Origin: a bacterium BMS3Bbin08
GTDB lineage: Bacteria; Nitrospirota; Thermodesulfovibrionia; UBA6902; BMS3Bbin08
DNA: 64,000 nucleotides
Assembly: GCA_002897775.1 (NCBI GenBank)
Contig: BDTR01000049.1
Coordinates: forward strand, 1-64,000
Direction of reading: 5' to 3'
The position numbers and the translations under genes were made by a program. The notes under the pieces were generated by a model. That model saw only the letters and a list, made by a program, of their open reading frames with translations. It was not told the origin of the DNA and did no database searches. Of this stretch, positions 2,830-15,289 are shown in pieces; position 1 is the stretch's first letter; the number at the start of each line of letters is the position of its first letter.

Positions 2830-4032
2830 ATGAGAAAAACAGATTTAATATGCATGTGGTGTGGAAAGGAAACCACAGGGATAAAGAAAGAAGATGGAGT
2901 GGAGCATATATTTCCTGAAGCTATCGGCGGAATAGATACACTTCCTATTGGAGATGTTTGCAAAGAATGCAACAATGAGTTGAGTAAGATAGATAAGGCA
3001 TTAAAGATTGGTAGTTTAGCTATGATGCATGCATATCAAACCGATACAAGAATTAAAGGCAAGAAAACAAGCGACATAGAAAGACGGCAGAGAAGGCTTA
3101 AAGAAAAAACGCATATTGAGGGAATAAGTGGAGCTCAAATAAAGAGAAATCCCCAAGGCCATTGGACAGAGATTCGCAATGGTAGCTTCTTAAGGAATAC
3201 AGACTCATTTTCAAGGGCACTACATAAATGTATTGCAAATGTTATTTGTTATCACGAAGGGTCTAAGTTTGTTCGAAAAAATTGCAAAGAGCTATTGGAG
3301 TTTGTAAAAAATGGAGGTGATGTCAGACCATGGAGTTGCGCTGTTAGTTATCCCTACATTCTAAATAGAGCATTATCTGTCATTCCTCATGCGATGAAAC
3401 TCTTAACAATTAAAAATAAGAACAATGAGATTGTAGCGTTGATTGTCTGTTTCGTTCACACTTCTGGTATTTGGCTTGCCGGCTCACAGCCATTTCTGTT
3501 ATCCAAACAGAAGATAGAAATGTTGTCAGATGCGCTCGTTAATAACACGCCTGAAGTAAAAAGAGTCGAAAAAAAATACGATACAAAAATAACAGATCTA
3601 TTTGGAGAGACGTCCATAGTAGGAATAAAAAATTTTATTGGCAAGTTGAATTTTATCTGGATAATTAAAGAGATAGAGGGGACAAAAAATCCAGATGACT
3701 CTTTTTACTTATTAGCAAAATGCAAACTTTGTAATCAAACAAATCCTACAGGTATAATAATCAGCAAAAAGACTGTATTTAAAGGGGACAATAGTAATCG
3801 AATATCATATGAGAAAAACTCATGGAACTCTTATTCAAAAGGTGATTTAATAAAAGATGGTGTAAATATTGAAAAATTGGACTCTGGGCATATAAGTAAA
3901 TACATTAAAACTCAAGGTATTTCTATTCCAATTAAAAATGATGTAAAAAAAATGGACTTCAAAAGGAAGAGATTCAATTGTATCAATTGTGGAGAGTTGA
4001 ATATCTTTAATGCAGGCGACTGTTTTTTATAA
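2830..4032 (+). CDS. HNH endonuclease-type protein with extra C-terminal zinc ribbon
   Basis: A 400-residue AT-rich gene. The N-terminus has an HNH-like zinc nuclease signature: CMWCG (residues 9-13), then VEHIFPEAIGG (about 25-35) and CKECNNELSK (about 45-54), which supplies the metal-binding cysteines, the catalytic histidine and the asparagine. The C-terminus holds two more CxxC pairs (CKLCNQ near 298 and CINCGE near 388) that probably form a zinc ribbon. The middle is of unknown fold. Such stand-alone HNH proteins are common in defence islands and mobile DNA. It stands alone between repeats, with only a weak ribosome site (GAAAGGT). Nuclease activity is inferred from the motif; the target is unknown. 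Confidence 0.75.
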   Translation: MRKTDLICMWCGKETTGIKKEDGVEHIFPEAIGGIDTLPIGDVCKECNNELSKIDKALKIGSLAMMHAYQTDTRIKGKKTSDIERRQRRLKEKTHIEGISGAQIKRNPQGHWTEIRNGSFLRNTDSFSRALHKCIANVICYHEGSKFVRKNCKELLEFVKNGGDVRPWSCAVSYPYILNRALSVIPHAMKLLTIKNKNNEIVALIVCFVHTSGIWLAGSQPFLLSKQKIEMLSDALVNNTPEVKRVEKKYDTKITDLFGETSIVGIKNFIGKLNFIWIIKEIEGTKNPDDSFYLLAKCKLCNQTNPTGIIISKKTVFKGDNSNRISYEKNSWNSYSKGDLIKDGVNIEKLDSGHISKYIKTQGISIPIKNDVKKMDFKRKRFNCINCGELNIFNAGDCFL

Positions 4033-4102: not shown

Positions 4103-4555
4103 TTATTCTTTTGAGTTTTTCATTTCATTAAGTTTGTTGATCTTGAAATTGAAGTACAAATTCGTAAAAAGGAAAGTCCACAGTCCGTGGAACCAGTGCG
4201 GCTGACCTTTTACTGCGCTGAGCAGCATGTTCATCCTGTTTCTGGCCTTGAATGCCCAAATCACGATAAGGATCCCCCAAATAAGATCCAGTAAGTCGTA
4301 TAGTGTTTCAATTGAGTGCCCCTCCGGAGCAAATAAATATGGGATTGTAATTATAGCGGTCACGTATGAGAAGACAAAGATAAACTTTACAAGGTCTTCT
4401 GATATCTTATGTCCCCCATTAAGGCTATGGTTCATTATCTTCGTCTGACGGTATATGTAGTGGGCAGAATAAATACCCAACGTGATTATGGTAAGAAAAA
4501 ACAAACGCCAAGTGCTTTGGCTTTTCAACTGGCCTACGAGTTCCTCATTGTTCAT
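4103..4555 (-). CDS. DUF4234 membrane protein
   Basis: A 150-residue protein predicted to span the membrane three or four times. The N-terminal RLFFLTIITLGIYSAHYIYR stretch, with hydrophobic residues followed by a tyrosine/basic cluster, is the hallmark of DUF4234. Further hydrophobic segments are at about residues 58-78 and 85-105. No enzymatic motif is visible. Its function is unknown; in other genomes the domain is often fused to zinc ribbons or near defence and stress genes. The gene reads toward the HNH gene (convergent) and is flanked by repeats on both sides. Confidence 0.7.
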   Translation of the reverse strand: MNNEELVGQLKSQSTWRLFFLTIITLGIYSAHYIYRQTKIMNHSLNGGHKISEDLVKFIFVFSYVTAIITIPYLFAPEGHSIETLYDLLDLIWGILIVIWAFKARNRMNMLLSAVKGQPHWFHGLWTFLFTNLYFNFKINKLNEMKNSKE

Positions 4556-4570
4556 ATGAGTTTCCTTTAT

Positions 4571-4650
4571 TTTGGGGACGTTGTATTAAACTATGTATTA
4601 GCAGCAATCTCAGAACTAAGAATAAGTAACTCATTAGGGGTCAGGTCTTG
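4571..4650. repeat. Two dispersed repeat motifs abutting the end of the PD-(D/E)XK gene
   Basis: TTTGGGGACGTT (4571-4582) recurs reverse-complemented at 5761-5772 and as a variant at 471. GGGGTCAGGTCT (4637-4648) recurs at 11757-11768 and as GGAGTCAGGTCT at 16189-16200. The second motif contains the TGA stop of the gene ending at 4641, so the last residues of that protein are repeat-derived. Both motifs are typical of decayed REP-like elements; that interpretation is inference. Confidence 0.55.
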
Positions 4651-5327
4651 TATCTTAACATTTCCCCCACATCTATAAAAACATCTGCAATATATCTCGA
4701 TAATTTATGTTTGCTAAGGCCTAAGAGTTTCTTCTCCAGCTGCAGTGCACCTGTCCATTGCTCTAACGACGTCGGGATATGAGTAGTATCATCCAAAAAG
4801 TAAACGAAAATGAGATATGCTTTTATTTTATTGAGATGCCTCAGATAGTAGAGATGAGCGAGCCTGTTGGCGTATTGATATAACCCGGTTGTCCAGTCGA
4901 TCTCAGTCCGGCACTTAAGGAACTCTCTTGTCTCTTTCAAACGCCTCTGGATACGTTTCCGAGATTTAGGTGATCTGGCCCCACAGCTTGACAGTAATTC
5001 CGGGATATTCGCCTTAGCTTCAACCAGAAAAACCTCCCCGTCATTTCCTTGTCCAAGTGCATCCCATTGCGGTCCTTTATTGGGCCAGAAATCGTGCAGA
5101 GGTATCTTTAATCCTGGGATCCCAAGTCTTTTTATAAAATCATCGTCACGATATTCGGCGTATTCATCATCTGCTAATGGGGACACCCATTCAATATTAT
5201 CTGACTTAATATGTATCTTCTCTTTGATGAGCTTATTCAACAGGGCAGGGCGATTGTTGATAAGTTCCTGAATATGCCGTAAACTTCCGCGTTCGCCTGA
5301 TTGTTGAGGAACTCTGCTCATAATCAC
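4641..5327 (-). CDS. PD-(D/E)XK nuclease-like protein, WYL-operator controlled
   Basis: A 228-residue protein with no named family that I recognise. The centre carries a restriction-endonuclease-fold signature: QWDALGQGNDGEVFLVEAKA at about residues 87-106, giving the D...E-x-K arrangement (WDALG then VEAKA) on a predicted strand. This suggests a DNA- or RNA-cleaving or degraded nuclease. A promoter reads into it: TTGATT (5353-5358) and TATACT (5331-5336) with 16-base spacing, and the TGCCA-N6-TGGCA operator lies at 5374-5389. The ORF begins at 5327; an ATG two codons inside (MSRVPQ) is equally possible. Its C-terminal LRYKT ends inside a dispersed repeat, so it may have lost its original tail. 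Confidence 0.65.
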   Translation of the reverse strand: MIMSRVPQQSGERGSLRHIQELINNRPALLNKLIKEKIHIKSDNIEWVSPLADDEYAEYRDDDFIKRLGIPGLKIPLHDFWPNKGPQWDALGQGNDGEVFLVEAKANIPELLSSCGARSPKSRKRIQRRLKETREFLKCRTEIDWTTGLYQYANRLAHLYYLRHLNKIKAYLIFVYFLDDTTHIPTSLEQWTGALQLEKKLLGLSKHKLSRYIADVFIDVGEMLRYKT

Positions 5328-5373
5328 ATCAGTATATCAAAACAGGCCTGAAAATCAAGATTCCTCTTTAGAT

Positions 5374-5389
5374 TGCCAATATGGTGGCA
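5374..5389. promoter_or_regulatory. WYL-regulon operator copy 1 (divergent promoter)
   Basis: TGCCAATATGGTGGCA matches the palindrome TGCCAnnATnnTGGCA. It lies between the divergent PD-(D/E)XK gene and receiver gene. On the plus strand it sits within a likely core promoter (TTGCCA 5373-5378, 17-base spacer, TTTAGT 5396-5401) for the receiver; on the minus strand it lies 15 bases upstream of the -35 of the nuclease-like gene. One site could thus control both directions. Confidence 0.7.
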
Positions 5390-5412
5390 GTCTGGTTTAG
5401 TAAAATGGACGC

Positions 5413-5793
5413 ATGGCAAAGAAAAAAATATTAATTGTTGACGAGGACGCGGGCGTTAGAGAAACCCTTAGCGGTATTTTTGAATACGAGAGATATACAG
5501 CGTTTACTGCAAAAACAGGGAGCAACGCTCTTAAATTACTTAAAACTAAATCCATAGACCTCATTTTTCTGGATATACATCTTCTAGATATTTTAGAGAA
5601 CGTTATCATAAACGAGCAAAGCCCGCCGGTAATATTGACCGGCAAAAAAGTAACGCCTGAAATTGTGCCAGAAGCACTCAGAAAAGGAGCAGTTGATTTC
5701 TTGGAAAAACCGCTCTCATTAGAAAAATTGCTTGTTTTAGCTAAAAGAGCCATCAAGAGTAACGTCCCCAAACAAAACAGTTTACTAACTTAA
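5413..5793 (+). CDS. Orphan single-domain response regulator (receiver)
   Basis: A 126-residue CheY-like receiver. Conserved positions are visible: the acidic pair DED after ILIV (residues 10-12), the phosphoacceptor Asp in LIFLDIHL (about residue 54), the Thr in ILTG and the Lys of LEKPLS (about residue 99). The loop after the phosphoacceptor lacks the usual LP-x-x-x-G pattern. No histidine kinase is in the window. ATG 5413 has only a GGAC site and a very short leader from the predicted promoter. The last residues (NVPKQN) are encoded by a reverse copy of the TTTGGGGACGTT repeat. It precedes the UDG-like gene by 38 bases, so the two may be cotranscribed under the WYL operator. Confidence 0.85.
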   Translation: MAKKKILIVDEDAGVRETLSGIFEYERYTAFTAKTGSNALKLLKTKSIDLIFLDIHLLDILENVIINEQSPPVILTGKKVTPEIVPEALRKGAVDFLEKPLSLEKLLVLAKRAIKSNVPKQNSLLT

Positions 5794-5831
5794 GCAAACT
5801 ACCTATAATTGGAAATATTGGAGGTATTTTA

Positions 5832-6461
5832 ATGGAAGAGATATGGGACAAGTGGCAGAGGCATTATAAGAATAGTCCAGAAGATATAAATCGTATATGT
5901 AAAGATGGCATACTTAATACAGAAGAATTTAAAAGCGCAAAGCCTAAGATACTTTTTATTATGAAGGAAGTTAACGATTTTGCTGGTAAAGATCTCCGGG
6001 TACTATTAAAGGATGGCCCATGTTTTAAGATGTGGCACACTGTTGCACGATGGGCGGCCGGGATATGGAAGGGATTCCCAGAATATAAGAAGGTTAACAA
6101 CTCAGATTTGATGCGAGAGGCTCTTTCGAAAATTGCGACTATCAACCTAAAAAAAGTATCTGGTGAATCATCTGCACTTTGGTCTCAAATCAATGCATAC
6201 GCACATCGGGATAGAGAACTACTGCGCGAACAAATTAGACAGATAAATCCAGACATTATAATTGCATGTGGAGTATTCGAAATATTAATCTGGCTATTAG
6301 ATCTTGATGTCGACCCAAACGAACCATATAAGTCACCGATAAAAGATAATAAACGTAATGCTTATGTAATACCATGGAAACATCCAGCTGGCAGATTTAA
6401 TAATGAAAAATCATACAATGCCTTAAGAAATATAGTGGAATCAAGGAATGTTAACTACTAA
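5832..6461 (+). CDS. Uracil-DNA glycosylase superfamily-like protein
   Basis: A 209-residue protein resembling the UDG-like superfamily by layout: an N-terminal strand KILFIMKEVND (residues 37-47) where UDGs carry the GxxP/substrate loop, a middle INLKKVSG (about 100-107), a strand NPDIIIACGV (about 138-147), and a C-terminal PWKHPAGR (about 180-187) in place of the UDG H-P-S loop. The canonical catalytic residues are not clear, so activity may differ or be lost. A strong GGAGG site precedes the ATG. It lies 38 bases after the receiver and converges with the OB-like gene, overlapping its stop by four bases. A role in DNA repair or defence is inferred from fold and neighbours. Confidence 0.6.
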   Translation: MEEIWDKWQRHYKNSPEDINRICKDGILNTEEFKSAKPKILFIMKEVNDFAGKDLRVLLKDGPCFKMWHTVARWAAGIWKGFPEYKKVNNSDLMREALSKIATINLKKVSGESSALWSQINAYAHRDRELLREQIRQINPDIIIACGVFEILIWLLDLDVDPNEPYKSPIKDNKRNAYVIPWKHPAGRFNNEKSYNALRNIVESRNVNY

Positions 6462-7012
6462 TTGATTTCTTTTATTTTTTCAACAAGAAACTGAGGGCCG
6501 GTCTCTGAGAGAGAGCCCAGAACAAAGAGCTTCTTGTTCTTCTTGCAAATCTTCCGGAAGTTATTAAATTCTTCTAAGAAAACAAGAACTTTTAAATCAG
6601 GCAGATCTTTGAATTTAGCATAGGCCAATTCGCTGCCGCTTTTTGTGCGGCGATACTTGACGCTCGAAATTGGCCCATAAATAGACAAGATATGTTGATG
6701 TGCGAATCGATTATTATTCTTTTTGTACTCCTCGTCAGATAGTTCGCTTAATTTTGCGCGTGTTGCTGGTGATGACTGAGACCTTATTTCAATTGGATGC
6801 ACCACGCTTTCAAAAATTACTAAATTGCCTTCAAATAAATATTTTTTTCCTTTCTTAAGCTTGGACCGGTAACGTAGAGCAATATCATCATCAAGAGTAA
6901 AAAATATATCTTCATGTTCATTGGTCATAATAAATCCAGATAATTCATCACTTTCAGGCCATTCCATGATATCAAAATCTTCAATCGTCCCAATCAATGA
7001 AACTTTAGACAT
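6458..7012 (-). CDS. Unrecognised protein with OB-fold-like pattern
   Basis: A 184-residue protein with no family that I can name. The first 75 residues alternate hydrophobic strands with polar turns (VSLIGTIEDFDIMEWPE, SGFIMTNEHEDIFFTL, KGKKYLFEGNLVIFES), a pattern typical of OB folds. The last 80 residues repeat a similar strand pattern (ILSIYGPISSVKYRRTK, KVLVFLEEFNNF, KLFVLGSLSE), suggesting two OB-like halves. Such folds usually bind single-stranded DNA or RNA, but binding here is inference. A GGGAGG site precedes the ATG. It is the second gene of a pair with the HEAT gene, 14 bases downstream of it, behind operator copy 2. Confidence 0.55.
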   Translation of the reverse strand: MSKVSLIGTIEDFDIMEWPESDELSGFIMTNEHEDIFFTLDDDIALRYRSKLKKGKKYLFEGNLVIFESVVHPIEIRSQSSPATRAKLSELSDEEYKKNNNRFAHQHILSIYGPISSVKYRRTKSGSELAYAKFKDLPDLKVLVFLEEFNNFRKICKKNKKLFVLGSLSETGPQFLVEKIKEIN

Positions 7013-7026
7013 TCAAGGCCTCCCTA

Positions 7027-7377
7027 CTAATTCCTTCTAAATTGATTCTTTCTTCTTTTTTCATCTTCCCTCTCCTTTATGTAATAATGTACATCTATCT
7101 GATCTACATCAGCACCGTATTTCAATATTGCTTCGATAAAATATTTATGGTCTGTTGTTTTTAGAAACCTCAAGGTATCCAGTGCTTTTTTGCCTCCGAT
7201 CCTCCTGATCGTGCGGATCGCTTCTTCCTGGATCCCAAGGTCGTCGTCATAAAGCGCTTTATATTTAAGACTTTCGAGAGCTTTTTTCAGTTTCTTTTTT
7301 CCAATGGCCCCGAGTGCCTCGTAAATATCATTAATATCTTTACTTTCAAGGAGTTGTAGTAATTCCTCTTCACTCAT
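7027..7377 (-). CDS. HEAT-repeat protein
   Basis: A 116-residue protein made of alpha-helical repeats. Two HEAT-like units are visible in residues 15-90: INDIYEALGAIGKKKLKKALE and LGIQEEAIRTIRRIGGKKALD-type helices with the typical A/I/G spacing. The C-terminal tail (about residues 98-116) is highly basic. HEAT repeats are protein- or nucleic-acid-binding scaffolds. No ribosome site is obvious, and a TATCAT -10 box at 7384-7389 places the transcript start almost at the ATG, so the mRNA may be leaderless. It heads the pair with the OB-like gene and sits behind a WYL operator. Confidence 0.65.
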   Translation of the reverse strand: MSEEELLQLLESKDINDIYEALGAIGKKKLKKALESLKYKALYDDDLGIQEEAIRTIRRIGGKKALDTLRFLKTTDHKYFIEAILKYGADVDQIDVHYYIKEREDEKRRKNQFRRN

Positions 7378-7400
7378 ATTTTAATGATAACAAAGGTCGC

Positions 7401-7416
7401 TGCCACCATTGTGGCA
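7401..7416. promoter_or_regulatory. WYL-regulon operator copy 2 (HEAT/OB pair)
   Basis: TGCCACCATTGTGGCA fits TGCCAnnATnnTGGCA. It ends 11 bases before the predicted TATCAT -10 (7384-7389, minus strand) of the HEAT gene and so overlaps the -35 region, a position suited to repression. Confidence 0.7.
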
Positions 7417-7426
7417 GTATGCCGTA

Positions 7427-8365
7427 CTATTTTTTGAGGTGTATTTGAAGGGCTTTCTGCAGGTCTTTTTTAACTATTGTTTTTAATTCTTTCGGAGCTA
7501 TGACTTCAACATGAGGCAGCCATTTATATATCCATTCTTTTATTTCATCTAAACCAGTCACCTTAAAGCTAACCTCAAGCTGGCCATTTTTTAGCTCTTT
7601 TTCTTTCTGGCTCTTGTGCCATTTCTTTCTTGTAATATAGCGTGATATATCGCTATCAAATCTTAATACAACTTCAACAGGTTTTCCATCAAGCCATGTT
7701 CCAAATGATTTGGAGAGTTCTTCTTTTTGTGAAATATTAATCGGAACAAACGACTCATCTAGAACTTTCAGAGAGATTATTCTATCAAGGTCAAAGGTGC
7801 GCAGCTCCTTTCTTAAATGACAATATGCCCTGAGATGCCAGAAACCCTCCTGGGGCGAAAAAAAGAGATAGTATGGATCGATCTTTCGAGTTGACTTCTT
7901 ATTAGAGTAAAGAGTTTTATATATAAGCCTTATCCTTTGAAAGTTTATAATCGCTTGATGTATTGCCTCAAGATACTCTCCAACTTCAGGGGAGGGGGGT
8001 TCAGCTTTTAAAACAATATGTCCTGAGAGGCCGGTCTTTTTTACAGAAAGCTTTTCTTCTATGCTGTTCAGACTTTTTTCCATGCCTGAGCCGAAATTAC
8101 CTAACATTTGTTTTGCGAGGGCGAGAGACAGTGTTTCTTCAACTGAAAGCACAGGTTTTCTAAGACTGTATTTTTCTACAAAAACATAGCTCTCTTTTTT
8201 TCTGTCATAATGAACAGGAAAACCGCCAATCTGTAATGTTTGTAGATAGCGATGAACACTTCTTTCGCTGATCTCAAGATCATCCATTAACGAATGCACC
8301 GTCACTTTTTTCCCGCTATCAAGCATATTTAGAATTTTCATTAATGAATCAAATTTATAAGACAT
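7427..8365 (-). CDS. WYL-domain transcriptional regulator
   Basis: A 312-residue regulator with an N-terminal winged HTH (residues 8-60: KILNMLDSGKKVTVHSLMDD followed by SERSVHRYLQTLQIGGFPV), a central WYL domain (about 140-215, with the RIRLIYKTLYS strand, DPYYLFFSPQEGFWHLRAYC and the FDLDRI end), and a C-terminal WCX extension (about 230-310). WYL proteins sense nucleic-acid ligands and control DNA-damage or phage-defence genes (PafBC, DriD, BrxR, CapW are known examples). The gene lies inside the cluster bearing four copies of one palindrome, one of which covers its own promoter. Ligand and sign of regulation are unknown; autoregulation is strongly suggested. Confidence 0.9.
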   Translation of the reverse strand: MSYKFDSLMKILNMLDSGKKVTVHSLMDDLEISERSVHRYLQTLQIGGFPVHYDRKKESYVFVEKYSLRKPVLSVEETLSLALAKQMLGNFGSGMEKSLNSIEEKLSVKKTGLSGHIVLKAEPPSPEVGEYLEAIHQAIINFQRIRLIYKTLYSNKKSTRKIDPYYLFFSPQEGFWHLRAYCHLRKELRTFDLDRIISLKVLDESFVPINISQKEELSKSFGTWLDGKPVEVVLRFDSDISRYITRKKWHKSQKEKELKNGQLEVSFKVTGLDEIKEWIYKWLPHVEVIAPKELKTIVKKDLQKALQIHLKK

Positions 8366-8402
8366 TTTTTGATCTCAGGCCTGTTTTCTTTGATTTCAGT
8401 AT

Positions 8403-8430
8403 ATTATACCTCACTGCCAACATCCTGGCA
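8403..8430 (-). promoter_or_regulatory. WYL gene promoter with operator copy 3
   Basis: TGCCAACATCCTGGCA (8415-8430) is followed on the minus strand, six bases on, by a consensus TATAAT (8403-8408). The operator therefore covers the -35 (CTGCCA) and spacer of the WYL gene promoter, the classical arrangement for negative autoregulation. All four operator copies share the central AT. Confidence 0.75.
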
Positions 8431-8503
8431 GTCTGAGGAGGAGATAAATTATAAAGGACAATAGGAATTGTGTTGGTCAGGGCTAGGGCAATAGGGAGGG
8501 TCC

Positions 8504-10189
8504 TTACCCTCTCGTCAAATGCCTGTACTTAATTCTATGCGGTTGGTTTGCGGCGGCTCCGAGACGTGCTTTTCTATCGGCTTCATATTCCGAGTAATTC
8601 CCATCGAACCAGACCACTTTACTGTCGCCCTCAAAGGCGAGTATATGTGTGGCGATACGGTCCAGGAACCACCTGTCATGGCTGATGATCACGGCACAGC
8701 CCGCGAAATTTTCCAAAGCCTCTTCCAGGGCGCGCATGGTGTTTACATCAAGATCATTGGTAGGTTCATCAAGGAGCAGTACATTCGCGTCTTCTTTCAG
8801 CATACGGGCCAAATGCACCCGGTTTCTTTCTCCTCCTGACAGCATTGAAACCTTTTTTTGCTGGTCGCTCCCTGAAAAATTAAAGCGCGCCACATATGTG
8901 CGTGAGTTGATCTGCCTCTTGCCAAGCTGAACGGTATCCTGCTCGTCTGAGATAACCTCCCAAATGCTTTTCTTTGGGTCCAGGTCATCCCGGCTCTGAT
9001 CCACGTAAGCGAGTTTGACTGTTTCTCCAATATTGAATGTGCCTGAATCCACTTTTCCCTGTCCGGTGATCATCTGGAAGAGGGTGGTCTTTCCTGCTCC
9101 GTTAGGGCCTATGACGCCTATAATACCGCCCGGAGGAAGGGAGAAGGTCATACCCTGCATAAGGATATTATCTCCGTATGCCTTGCTCACGTTATCAGCT
9201 TCAATGACCACATTACCCAGCCGGGGTCCCGGCGGAATAAATATCTCGAGCTCTTTAGATGTTTTATCGATATCCTGGTTCAGGAGCGCCTCGTATGAAG
9301 TGATACGCGCCTTGGATTTCGCGTGCCGCCCCTTGGGTGACATGCGTATCCATTCAAGCTCGCGCTGAAGGGTCTTCTGTCTTTCGCTCTCAGACTTCTC
9401 TTCCTGCCCCAGGCGGTTCTTCTTCTGCTCAAGCCATGAGGAGTAATTGCCTTTCCACGGGATACCCTGTCCCCTGTCAAGTTCCAGTATCCACCCGGCC
9501 ACATTATCGAGAAAATACCGGTCATGGGTCACTGCAATGATAGTGCCGGCATAGCTCTGCAGATGATGCTCCAGCCATGCCACGGTCTCGGCGTCAAGGT
9601 GGTTGGTGGGTTCATCCAAAAGCAGGATGTCTGGTTTCTGCAGGAGGAGCTTGCAAAGCGCGACACGCCGCCTTTCTCCTCCTGAAAGGACCTCCATGGG
9701 CGTATCTCCTGAAGGACAGCGCAGTGCATCCATTGCCATTTCCAGGCGTGAATCAAGGTCCCAGGCATTCATTGCTTCGAGTTTCTCCTGAACCGTTCCC
9801 TGACGCTCGATGAGTTTGCTCATTTCATCGTCAGACATGGGCTCAGTGAATTTTTCATTAATGCTGTTATATTCTGTCAGGGTATCTGCTATTTCCTGCA
9901 CACCCTGTTCAACGATCTGCCGCACGGTCTTGTTGTCATCCAGTTTGGGCTCCTGCTCAAGCAGGCCCACGGTGTGACCAGGAGAAAGCACGGTCTTACC
10001 GTTGAACTCCTTATCTTTTCCCGCAAGTATGCGGAGCAGGGAGCTTTTCCCTGACCCGTTGAGGCCGAGGACACCGATCTTGGCCCCGTAGAAATATGAA
10101 AGATAGATATCCTTCAGTACGGGCTTCTTATCGTAATACTTGCTTACCCCGATCATGGAGTAAATTATCTTGTCAGGTTCATTGCTCAT
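8504..10189 (-). CDS. ettA: Energy-dependent translational throttle protein EttA (ABC-F ATPase)
   Basis: A 561-residue ABC-F protein that binds the ribosomal E site and gates the first elongation steps according to ATP/ADP ratio. Two ATPase domains are complete: Walker A GLNGSGKSS, signature LSGGERRRVALC and Walker B LLLDEPTNHLD in the first half; GPNGAGKTT, LSGGERNRVHLA and LLLDEPTNDLD in the second. The long inter-domain linker (about residues 245-325) contains the arm-type KKNRLGQEEKSESERQK and MSPKGRHAKSKARI stretches. The protein begins MSNEPDKIIYSMIGVSKYY like EttA; an upstream TTG would add three residues. It runs divergently from the DEAD-box helicase. Codon use is more GC-rich than the island around it. 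Confidence 0.95.
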   Translation of the reverse strand: MSNEPDKIIYSMIGVSKYYDKKPVLKDIYLSYFYGAKIGVLGLNGSGKSSLLRILAGKDKEFNGKTVLSPGHTVGLLEQEPKLDDNKTVRQIVEQGVQEIADTLTEYNSINEKFTEPMSDDEMSKLIERQGTVQEKLEAMNAWDLDSRLEMAMDALRCPSGDTPMEVLSGGERRRVALCKLLLQKPDILLLDEPTNHLDAETVAWLEHHLQSYAGTIIAVTHDRYFLDNVAGWILELDRGQGIPWKGNYSSWLEQKKNRLGQEEKSESERQKTLQRELEWIRMSPKGRHAKSKARITSYEALLNQDIDKTSKELEIFIPPGPRLGNVVIEADNVSKAYGDNILMQGMTFSLPPGGIIGVIGPNGAGKTTLFQMITGQGKVDSGTFNIGETVKLAYVDQSRDDLDPKKSIWEVISDEQDTVQLGKRQINSRTYVARFNFSGSDQQKKVSMLSGGERNRVHLARMLKEDANVLLLDEPTNDLDVNTMRALEEALENFAGCAVIISHDRWFLDRIATHILAFEGDSKVVWFDGNYSEYEADRKARLGAAANQPHRIKYRHLTRG

Positions 10190-12290: not shown

Positions 12291-12794
12291 ATGATTACTT
12301 TTGGCGATAACGTTCTGCTTTGGCGATTACACAGATCGCTTTCTCAAGAGCAGCTGGCGGCCCGGGCCAACATACCCCGTCCCAATTTATCGAGTATCGA
12401 AAGGGGAAAGAGGAGTGTGACTCTATCTACCATTCGATCGCTGGCAAACGCCCTTGATGTGCCTCCGGGGACTCTTGTCAATGGCGAACCACCGGGACAT
12501 AAGAAGTATAAAAGCGATTTTACGCGGGAAGCTATGGAGAGGGTAGCTCGTTCAGTTGTTCAGGGAGTTCCCCCTAAAGATCCCTCTGAACATCAAATCT
12601 ACGATTTATTGAAACAAGTTCTCCAGTGTGGACTTCAAAGTGTGCGGGCCCACCACCGCAAACTGCCCCTGCCTACCAGAAGAAGCGCTCGGGCGTGGCT
12701 TTATTTACGCGCGTTGTGTTCGACAGAGACTATCAATAGTCTTATTGCCAGATCAGTGGAGCAGGCGGAAATAAAATGGATCGACGACAAATAG
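12291..12794 (+). CDS. XRE-family HTH regulator, putative antitoxin
   Basis: A 167-residue protein. Residues 5-60 are a classical Cro/C1 HTH (FGDNVLLWRLHRSLSQEQLA, then IPRPNLSSIERGKRSVTLST). The remaining hundred residues are helical and basic with no recognised domain; they probably contact the partner. The gene overlaps the nucleotidyltransferase gene by 19 bases, so the two are cotranslated. The promoter palindrome and the lack of any ribosome site point to a leaderless, autorepressed transcript. A toxin-antitoxin pairing is inferred from layout; the family is not one of the named experimentally proven modules that I can identify. Confidence 0.82.
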   Translation: MITFGDNVLLWRLHRSLSQEQLAARANIPRPNLSSIERGKRSVTLSTIRSLANALDVPPGTLVNGEPPGHKKYKSDFTREAMERVARSVVQGVPPKDPSEHQIYDLLKQVLQCGLQSVRAHHRKLPLPTRRSARAWLYLRALCSTETINSLIARSVEQAEIKWIDDK

Positions 12795-13384
12795 ACCGTT
12801 TTTTCAAGATCCTTGGTGCTGAGTTTAATAAAGAGGCTGAGATCATACTAACCGGTGCGGCCGCGGGTCACATAATGGGCAGCAAACGGCCCAGCATGGA
12901 CATAGACTTTGCCATCAAACTTAAAAAGGCGGGGAAACCTGGATGGGAGGAGCTGGAATCTGCCATTAGGAAAGCAATTGCTGAAACCGGTATTCAGGTC
13001 AACTATGCCGAGGATATCGATAAATGGGGCATGATAACTTTACTTGACTATGAAAACAACACAAAATTTTATAAAAAATACGGCAACCTGACTCTAAGGG
13101 TGCTCAGTCCGGCTTTTTGGTCCATTGGAAAAGTGACACGTTTTCTGGATCCGGACATTAAAGATATGATCCAGGTTTTCCGCAAAACAAAACTTTCACC
13201 GATAAAGCTGGCGAAAGTCTGGGGAAGAGCCCTTAGAGAAAGTCCGCGGTCAATGGTCCTTACGCGATTCCGGCGACAGGTAGAAAGCTTTTTTGACTCC
13301 TATGGCAAAAGGATCTGGGGCAGCAGTTTCAACTCAACAAAAGCTATCCGGCAATTTCATAAATCAGCAGATATCGAGAAATAG
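12776..13384 (+). CDS. Nucleotidyltransferase-fold protein (DUF6036-like), putative toxin
   Basis: A 202-residue protein of the DNA polymerase beta nucleotidyltransferase superfamily, close to DUF6036/AbiEii relatives. The active-site region is IILTGAAAGHIMGSKRPSMDIDFAI (residues about 22-46, shown here only to mark it): a GA-x-A loop followed by the D-x-D pair that binds metal. The C-terminal half has a helical bundle (IKLAKVWGRALRESPRS). It follows the HTH antitoxin candidate with a 19-base overlap. By analogy to AbiE/MNT systems it may nucleotidylate tRNA or protein. Together with abiEi/abiEii this gives two nucleotidyltransferase modules within 12 kb. Confidence 0.78.
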   Translation: MDRRQIDRFFKILGAEFNKEAEIILTGAAAGHIMGSKRPSMDIDFAIKLKKAGKPGWEELESAIRKAIAETGIQVNYAEDIDKWGMITLLDYENNTKFYKKYGNLTLRVLSPAFWSIGKVTRFLDPDIKDMIQVFRKTKLSPIKLAKVWGRALRESPRSMVLTRFRRQVESFFDSYGKRIWGSSFNSTKAIRQFHKSADIEK

Positions 13385-13524: not shown

Positions 13525-14997
13525 TTAGCAAGCTTTTCCCAGCTTCTCCAATATCCTAACCATACCCAATGTATCCAACCCGCAATATTCGAGAAGAGCT
13601 TTGCGGATCTGTTCATTTTCTGTCGAATCCGGTGATTGGCACATCTTCAGATATGCCTCTGAGGCCATGCCGCCTTCACCGATATCCATATCATCGTAAC
13701 TTAATTCCGGCACGAGTATAGGCAACACTATTTTCATGGAAAATGATCCATTCATCTTATAATGGTAATAGTCCTTGCTCCTAAAAGGGGCTGCAAGATC
13801 TCTTATGTTTGATATAATTCTATCGATTTTTCCCTTGTATTTCGGGAACCATTCTGCAAGCTGTTTTAATACTCCCTTTTCAAATGACATGTTATATGCC
13901 AAAACGCAGGCATCCTGAGGGATTTCCTTAATAAGCCTGGTAATAATTTCCTCTCTGGGATCTGTGTTTGGAGGTGCCAGATACTCATAATGACCTATCT
14001 TGCCACCTTTTTTTTCTAAATAATCCAGTGAATACTGGAAAGGCACCTTCTGGTATGGACGCAGGTTATCATAAGGCGGTATGGCGCAATCAAAAGTTTC
14101 GAAATCGAGAAAATACAGTGGATACCACAACGACTCTATGAATTTTTTAATCTTATCCTTATCAATAACATTTTTCTTTTTAAGAGTTGCATTTGCCTGG
14201 ATTCCCTGATTACGATTTAAACTATCCGCAGGAACATCCTTCAGATGTACAATTCCCTGTTTATATAGATCAAACTTATTAACGCCATGCCCCCTAAGAT
14301 CAAATATTGAATTCTCCGGTATATGCTGCCAACAGTGTCCCTGAAAGTCACAATTATAAGGTGCACTGCAGTATTTACCAATATCAATCTCAGGTATATC
14401 TCCTTCAAGCATTTTTTTCTGTTTTGCAAGTTCTTTTTTAACGGAATCCTGTTTGTTTTTTACACGTTTAGTACAATCAATTATCTCAAAAAGCTTTTTC
14501 ACGTCAATTTTGCCTTTTCGCACGTATTTATTATTTATATGCACTAAAAAGGCCTTAGATACCGGGAGTCCCGCCCCTTTTAAAACATAATACTGTATAG
14601 CAACATCATCTAAATATACGTCTTTTTCTCCGGTTGAGCTCTTGACCTCATAAAGCTCCCAGCCCATCTTACCTTTATGTAAGATATCAACCTTAACAAA
14701 GACATTATCATGGACAAACGCGGCTTCATATAGAGTGTTAGTGCCTTTTTCAATCTCAGATTTGGTAAGGCTAAGTTGTTTTGAAAGAGTCCCTTTACCA
14801 AAAGGTATTGCAACTCCTCCAGGAAAAAGTTTTTGGGCATAAATTCCAACATCTGTGCCGCTTTGAAATAAGGCCTGCTGTAACGCTGAAATTTCGTCAC
14901 GTAGTTCTGGTTGGTGTTTATACAGATAAAGGGATTTGTGACACTGAAGGCCCCTAATGAAAGAGGATTTACTGAGAGATAAGTTGACTGTTTTCAT
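13525..14997 (-). CDS. Cas4-like nuclease fused to DUF2779 DEDD-type exonuclease
   Basis: A 490-residue two-domain protein. The N-terminal half resembles Cas4/RecB: LSKSSFIRGLQCHKSLYL (residues 6-23, giving the first cysteine), a PD-(D/E)XK core with VDIL and WELYEVKSST (about 104-122) and QYYVLKGAG, then a cysteine trio YCSAPYNC...GHC (about 208-222) that would complete a 4Fe-4S cluster. The C-terminal half is DUF2779, an RNase H/DnaQ-like fold with LYFLDFETFD (about 296-305), LAYNMSFEKGVL (about 373-384) and LLEYCGLDTLGMV (about 468-480) supplying the DEDD residues. Operator copy 4 lies 155 bases upstream. Its role in repair or defence DNA processing is inferred. Confidence 0.85.
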   Translation of the reverse strand: MKTVNLSLSKSSFIRGLQCHKSLYLYKHQPELRDEISALQQALFQSGTDVGIYAQKLFPGGVAIPFGKGTLSKQLSLTKSEIEKGTNTLYEAAFVHDNVFVKVDILHKGKMGWELYEVKSSTGEKDVYLDDVAIQYYVLKGAGLPVSKAFLVHINNKYVRKGKIDVKKLFEIIDCTKRVKNKQDSVKKELAKQKKMLEGDIPEIDIGKYCSAPYNCDFQGHCWQHIPENSIFDLRGHGVNKFDLYKQGIVHLKDVPADSLNRNQGIQANATLKKKNVIDKDKIKKFIESLWYPLYFLDFETFDCAIPPYDNLRPYQKVPFQYSLDYLEKKGGKIGHYEYLAPPNTDPREEIITRLIKEIPQDACVLAYNMSFEKGVLKQLAEWFPKYKGKIDRIISNIRDLAAPFRSKDYYHYKMNGSFSMKIVLPILVPELSYDDMDIGEGGMASEAYLKMCQSPDSTENEQIRKALLEYCGLDTLGMVRILEKLGKAC

Positions 14998-15094: not shown

Positions 15095-15151
15095 TAGTCT
15101 CACTATGTATTATCACTCCTATGCTCTGCTACCGTCCTGTCAGTCTCAGAT

Positions 15152-15167
15152 TGCCATAATGGTGGCA
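15152..15167. promoter_or_regulatory. WYL-regulon operator copy 4 (Cas4-DEDD gene)
   Basis: TGCCATAATGGTGGCA fits TGCCAnnATnnTGGCA, and its flank GGCAGTCTGG is identical to copy 1. It lies 38 bases upstream of a GATAAT box reading toward the Cas4-DEDD gene. The 7 kb separation from the WYL gene indicates a regulon rather than only autoregulation. Confidence 0.65.
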
Positions 15168-15289
15168 GTCTGGACTTCGACTGAGTTCAGTTAAGGTCTC
15201 GGACATCGGTGCTATTCGGGCCTGCCCCGATGTATCGGGCTCCCGTACAACATCGTAGACGGGATAAATCTCCGAAATAAAGCCCCGGC

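Follow-up and report, generated by a model that had tools for sequence, protein, structure and literature searches.

A shared operator suggests a WYL-switched, probably anti-phage regulon with exchangeable cargo in a Nitrospirota bacterium

We analyzed a stretch of 64,000 nucleotides (nt) from the Nitrospirota bacterium BMS3Bbin08 (assembly GCA_002897775.1, contig BDTR01000049.1, positions 1 to 64,000), hereafter the window, in which five small adjacent genes lie beside a gene encoding a WYL transcription factor. The genome behind the window comprises 2.7 Mb in 67 contigs, and the counts given across genomes refer to about 400 genomes from the phylum and 47 from the order. A sequence-only reading of this locus had proposed an island of five genes with folds related to nucleic acids, sharing an operator logic and belonging to no familiar named system. 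All five open reading frames were present at the positions it gave (Table 1). Family scans agreed with the proposed folds for the receiver, the DnaE-like OB protein, the HEAT protein and, weakly, the uracil-DNA glycosylase (UDG)-like protein. The PD-(D/E)XK-like protein had no match in a Pfam scan, although the core residues of the fold were kept. A PADLOC scan of the five proteins returned no meaningful match and no named defence system. The guanine-cytosine (GC) content is 0.34-0.40 across about 2-8 kb of the window, compared with about 0.45 in the flanks. The convergent UDG-like and OB genes, which had been thought to be packed into one module, do share 4 nt where their 3′ ends meet. However, convergent stops often overlap, and the overlap alone is no sign of a module.

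The shared operator logic, which had been claimed without detail, could be specified. A repeat search of positions 4500-8600 found a 21-nt repeat family with three copies, all of them intergenic. The operator is an inverted repeat, TGCCA-N2-AT-N2-TGGCAGT(C/A)TG, with the core TGCCA-N6-TGGCA. The exact pattern, TGCCANNATNNTGGCAGTVTG, matched four times in the whole genome (at 5374, 7401, 8415 and 15152), always within the same 9.8 kb, and the remaining genome held no match. The regulated unit is larger than the block first noted, as it also includes the WYL gene and a DUF2779 gene. Judged from the sequence, co-regulation of the island is well supported.

Table 1. Genes and operator sites of the putative WYL regulon in the window.
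Feature	Position	Strand	Evidence and remarks	Operator sequence
PD-(D/E)XK-like protein, 228 amino acids (ATG probably at 5321)	4641..5327	-	D89...E103-A-K105 core	
Stand-alone receiver, 126 amino acids, first gene of receiver-UDG unit	5413..5793	+	PF00072 5e-17; D54, T76, K99 kept; operator 23 nt upstream	
UDG-superfamily protein, 209 amino acids	5832..6461	+	PF03167 8e-4 (single sequence, under curated cut-off); K45-E46, N105..K108, H184-P185 conserved	
OB-fold protein, 184 amino acids, second gene of HEAT-OB	6458..7012	-	DnaE C-terminal OB-like: NCBIfam 4e-8 at 69-183; Pfam tRNA_anti 0.004	
HEAT-repeat protein, 116 amino acids, first gene of HEAT-OB operon	7027..7377	-	HEAT_2 PF13646 2.8e-7	
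HTH-WYL-WCX transcription factor, presumed island regulator	7427..8365	-	Pfam HTH_11, WYL 7e-18, WCX 8e-16, above cut-off	
DUF2779 (RNase H-like) protein, Cas4-like region, presumed nuclease	13525..14997	-	PF11074 1e-44; PADLOC Cas4 2e-4	
Operator 1	8415..8435	+	before WYL gene (autoregulation)	TGCCAACATCCTGGCAGTCTG
Operator 2	7401..7421	+	before HEAT-OB; - strand -10 TATCAT, gap 11; core-to-ATG 23 nt	TGCCACCATTGTGGCAGTATG
Operator 3	5374..5394	+	divergent receiver / PD-(D/E)XK spacer; towards receiver: -10 TAAAAT, gap 11; core-to-ATG 23 nt	TGCCAATATGGTGGCAGTCTG
Operator 4	15152..15172	+	upstream of DUF2779 gene	TGCCATAATGGTGGCAGTCTG
Degenerate proximal operator	15127..15147	+	3 mismatches; 25 bp from operator 4; - strand -10 GATAAT, gap 12	

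The distance between operator and promoter was nearly constant. A -10-like hexamer, with at least four of six matches to TATAAT, stood 11-12 nt from the operator core in 13 of the 13 operator-promoter pairs, while the chance of such a hexamer at a given gap (with A2 and T6) is about 0.03. The -35 hexamer at that register matched at only zero to three of six positions. The operator thus occupies the position at which a -35 would be expected. The WYL promoters hold a second -35/-10 pair under the operator (C/ATGCCA, spacing 17-18, TATAAT or TATACT). At operator 1, on the minus strand, the core overlaps the -35 CTGCCA, and TATAAT and TATACT follow at gaps 6 and 11, respectively. This operator-independent pair would be compatible with autorepression. 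The receiver gene, the HEAT gene and the HEAT orthologue of genome G026 (locus L028, 4306-4638) all have their ATG 23 nt from the core, only 6 nt past the -10, and no Shine-Dalgarno sequence. For this reason, the three mRNAs are probably leaderless.

The geometry did not extend to the PD-(D/E)XK-like gene, which shares its spacer with operator 3. Facing this gene, the gap-11 hexamer (AATCTT) matches at three of six positions. With no -10 at the conserved distance, this gene is not convincing as a direct target of the operator, and it is the least certain member of the regulon. As for the protein, D89...E103-A-K105 was invariant in a comparison with a homologue from an Azospirillum plasmid (WP_111068324, 34% identical), by which it seems to have the D...(D/E)XK core.

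Orthologues of the WYL protein, 52-66% identical, were found in four genomes of the same order (G026, G041, G034 and G014), each with an operator upstream. Together with the window, TGNCA-N6-TGNCA was present 42-56 nt upstream of the start codon in five of five cases. When each 150-nt upstream region was shuffled 5000 times, the motif arose in 0.04-0.1% of the shuffles. Other genomes of the order had many single operator matches without a WYL orthologue. These are probably background, as we estimate that the loose pattern would match about 0.6 times in each genome by chance. The G026 orthologue (L028, that is G026:C78, 1275-2189) appears truncated or frameshifted and continues in another frame.

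The genes around these regulators varied. In G014 the order is WYL, DUF2130, a NOV_C/DUF3883-type gene, McrB, McrC and a metallo-hydrolase, and in G041 the neighbours of the WYL gene are a toxin-antitoxin pair and the gene of a GmrSD_N protein. In G034, operators precede the WYL gene, an HNH gene and an operon of a DrmD-like helicase and a sacsin/TmtA-like ATPase, the last with a long leader (about 350 nt). In that operon (L143, 1464-7708) the helicase is of the SNF2 type and the operator lies about 380 nt upstream; the ATPase-helicase pair matched no named complete system. A more distant WYL gene, in G029, adjoins McrB/McrC with a TGACA-N6-TGTCA site. As the WYL genes of relatives adjoin such varied restriction and defence genes, the WYL regulator seems to be tied to defence and its cargo to be exchangeable. 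In G045, the gene next after a gap-truncated WYL gene encodes a DUF2779 protein that is 51.6% identical to the one in the window, and an exact operator precedes the following (HD) gene. Both observations favour counting the DUF2779 gene in the regulon.

The HEAT-OB unit was the only other part of the island found again with its regulator. In G026 the HEAT orthologue (58% identical) has its own operator 23 nt before the ATG and is followed by an OB orthologue (30% identical). Downstream of them (L028, 5519-7778) are a DUF6946 gene and PDC-S26, a PD-(D/E)XK_4 candidate defence nuclease. WYL-HEAT-OB with its operators was thus kept across two families of the order, in two of the 47 genomes. An AlphaFold2 model of the OB protein (two sequences) had a pLDDT of 48.

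These distributions bear on the idea that the five genes, or the WYL gene plus the five, form a single dedicated defence machine. The genes are closely packed and share operators, as such a machine would require. However, no other genome searched carried the UDG-like, OB, HEAT and PD-(D/E)XK-like genes together, and each family is scattered. The expected co-conservation of the five-gene block was not observed, since homologues of the UDG-like, PD-(D/E)XK-like and OB proteins were found apart and only WYL-HEAT-OB recurred, in one other genome. The five-gene module was rejected on the separate distribution of its members, and a single machine is extremely unlikely. The sequence-only reading had itself named scattered genes as the result that would refute it. 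The genes are scattered as a module, but not as a regulon. What stands of the island is a group of nucleic-acid genes co-regulated under the WYL gene and probably serving defence. An ordinary accessory patch, in which horizontally acquired single genes came to share a regulator through chance insertion, would agree with the patchiness of every cargo gene. It would hardly produce four near-identical operators with conserved promoter spacing at three unrelated cargo units, and we consider it very unlikely.

The UDG-like protein had been described as a possible sensor or repurposed enzyme with an altered catalytic loop. The alteration is real. The protein lacks both GEAPG and the 4Fe-4S cysteine set, and has instead a K-E/D loop that is conserved in its family. 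As this loop is conserved and the UDG landmarks remain, namely N105 (an Asn in all members but one), the Lys and the His-Pro pair, the sensor idea was not supported. Judged by these residues, the protein belongs to a divergent clade of enzymes and has not decayed into a sensor. Its family profile matched the UDG of S. tokodaii (4ZBX) at 8.8e-5, and hhalign aligned its C-terminal half with family-4 UDGs at 96% probability. Taking E46 as the counterpart of the GEAPG acid is a manual reading, as the register of the N-terminal loop is not fixed by hhalign. Modelled alone with AlphaFold2, the protein had a pLDDT of 38.

We found no homologue of the UDG-like protein among 60 related genomes searched. 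Plasmids of Vibrio, Enterococcus and Bacteroides and three further genomes within the phylum carry homologues with 24-29% identity. Their neighbours on plasmids include restriction-modification systems (AlwI in Enterococcus, NgoPII and HaeIII on one Vibrio plasmid), and SIR2 lies beside some homologues. A canonical UDG is encoded elsewhere in the same genome (contig C37). Two DNA glycosylases, Brig1 and Brig3, act in phage defence (PMC11078745, PMC13160076). The S. tokodaii UDG 4ZBX was reported as the best structural match of Brig1, and no Brig chain was among the PDB matches of the UDG-like profile. Considering the fold, the mobility and the regulon membership, excision of a modified phage base in the manner of Brig would be the likeliest function. 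The receiver encoded just upstream has kept its phospho-acceptor and may tune the UDG-like protein. A phage origin of the UDG-like and PD-(D/E)XK-like genes was also considered and rejected, as the window proteins had no match in phage records and viral contigs. The Enterococcus homologue of the UDG-like protein had one weak match, to a Lactobacillus phage.

We consider it probable that the block is an anti-phage regulon switched by the WYL protein, with exchangeable cargo, rather than one fixed machine. We infer that the WYL protein binds TGCCA-N6-TGGCA both in the promoter of its own gene and in those of HEAT-OB, receiver-UDG and DUF2779. Phage attack or DNA damage would expose its ligand, most likely single-stranded DNA (ssDNA), and the target units would be switched together. 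The liganded protein most likely activates the cargo promoters as DriD does, because the operator covers the -35 region, always 11-12 nt from the -10, and these promoters have no good -35. The apo-protein probably also represses its own promoter, where the site covers a second -35/-10 pair that is independent of the operator. The cargo would consist of interchangeable anti-phage effectors: the UDG-like enzyme, excising modified bases as the Brig proteins do, and the DUF2779 nuclease would act on phage DNA, and the OB protein with its HEAT partner would bind ssDNA.

The same features might be expected of a DNA-damage regulon like those of DriD and PafBC, in which the WYL protein senses ssDNA and induces repair enzymes, phage defence being incidental. 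By sequence, the PDB chains nearest to the WYL protein are those of PafBC and of the DriD type, the operator is placed as in DriD, and a UDG-like glycosylase, nucleases and an ssDNA-binding OB protein are folds that suit repair. On the other hand, the orthologous WYL genes adjoin restriction and defence cargo. The UDG-like gene, missing from the relatives searched, would add to a canonical UDG already present, and the genes are low in GC, patchy and situated beside AbiE. We regard this explanation as unlikely.

Several observations weigh against the anti-phage regulon as proposed. Among the operator-promoter pairs, the five WYL promoters are orthologous to one another, and these are not independent. 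HEAT-OB is present in two genomes only. One member of the UDG-like family adjoins fatty-acid synthesis genes and another adjoins plasmid mobilization genes. Finally, the published WYL proteins that control defence, BrxR and CapW, are repressors that bind palindromes near their own promoters (PMC9122601, PMC9122588), and therefore the sign of the regulation could be the reverse. The WYL protein would then repress the island until relieved by a phage-derived ligand, in agreement with the good -35/-10 pair right beneath the operator in the WYL promoters. However, the cargo promoters have no -35 and would be weak unaided, and the fixed spacing between operator and -10 is activator-like. BrxR aligned with the WYL protein only at 129-196 (2.7e-7), and the PafBC and DriD-type chains scored higher. 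A repressor of this type is conceivable but somewhat doubtful.

Three other observations concern the surroundings. A type IV toxin-antitoxin pair, AbiEi (DUF6088)/AbiEii, with strong PADLOC and Pfam matches, is located at 827-2424, and no WYL-type operator was found near it. At 12291-13384, within the span of the regulon, an HTH_3 regulator overlaps an AbiEii-like nucleotidyltransferase in a second toxin-antitoxin-like pair. A 400-residue HNH_5 protein with a Cys-rich motif at its N terminus is encoded at 2830-4032, in the stretch of lowest GC content (0.34).

Little is known of the way in which defence islands are switched on, and the WYL regulators linked to defence to date are repressors. 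In the present case, an operator that can be read from the sequence, with a fixed promoter geometry, connects one WYL regulator to several unrelated defence systems across an order. Regulon membership, which is independent of gene proximity, nominates uncharacterized proteins (the UDG-like protein, HEAT-OB and DUF2779) as effectors, and the operator plus -10 pattern can be used for finding hidden defence genes in other genomes. As a tentative extension, a DriD-like, ssDNA-responsive WYL protein might be a portable anti-phage switch in Nitrospirota. A module would join by gaining a 16-bp operator 11-12 nt from its -10, and the switch would here drive a new base-excising clade of the UDG fold and a new HEAT-OB module.

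Among known systems, DriD of Caulobacter and PafBC/SiwR are close: they share the HTH-WYL-WCX architecture, the WYL arginines of the RTFxLDR stretch are kept, and they are the nearest solved sequences. DriD sites are pseudo-palindromic and overlap the -35 at a constant distance from the -10 in poor promoters (PMC12340889), as the operators do here. However, the DriD site is ATACGAC-N7-GTCGTAT rather than TGCCA-N6-TGGCA, and its cargo is didA, bapE, recJ and dnaG, whereas the orthologous WYL genes here carry restriction and defence genes. With BrxR and CapW the window shares a WYL gene beside diverse defence systems and an inverted repeat at its own and the cargo promoters; their sites, in contrast, lie at or after the -10, and the HTH region of the window protein had no sequence match to BrxR. 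The UDG-like protein resembles family-4 UDGs (TTUDGA/TM0511) in its C-terminal half, with QI..PD/IIxxxG, the His-Pro motif and N-x-x-K, and differs from them in lacking GEAPG and the 4Fe-4S cysteines. Compared by description, it is like Brig1 and Brig3 in its UDG-superfamily fold, in having S. tokodaii UDG (4ZBX/4ZBY) as the nearest solved relative, in the divergent loops of its active site and in the occurrence of some homologues in defence loci. Its base-recognition residue, in contrast, is still an Asn, as against Glu in Brig1 and Asp in Brig3.

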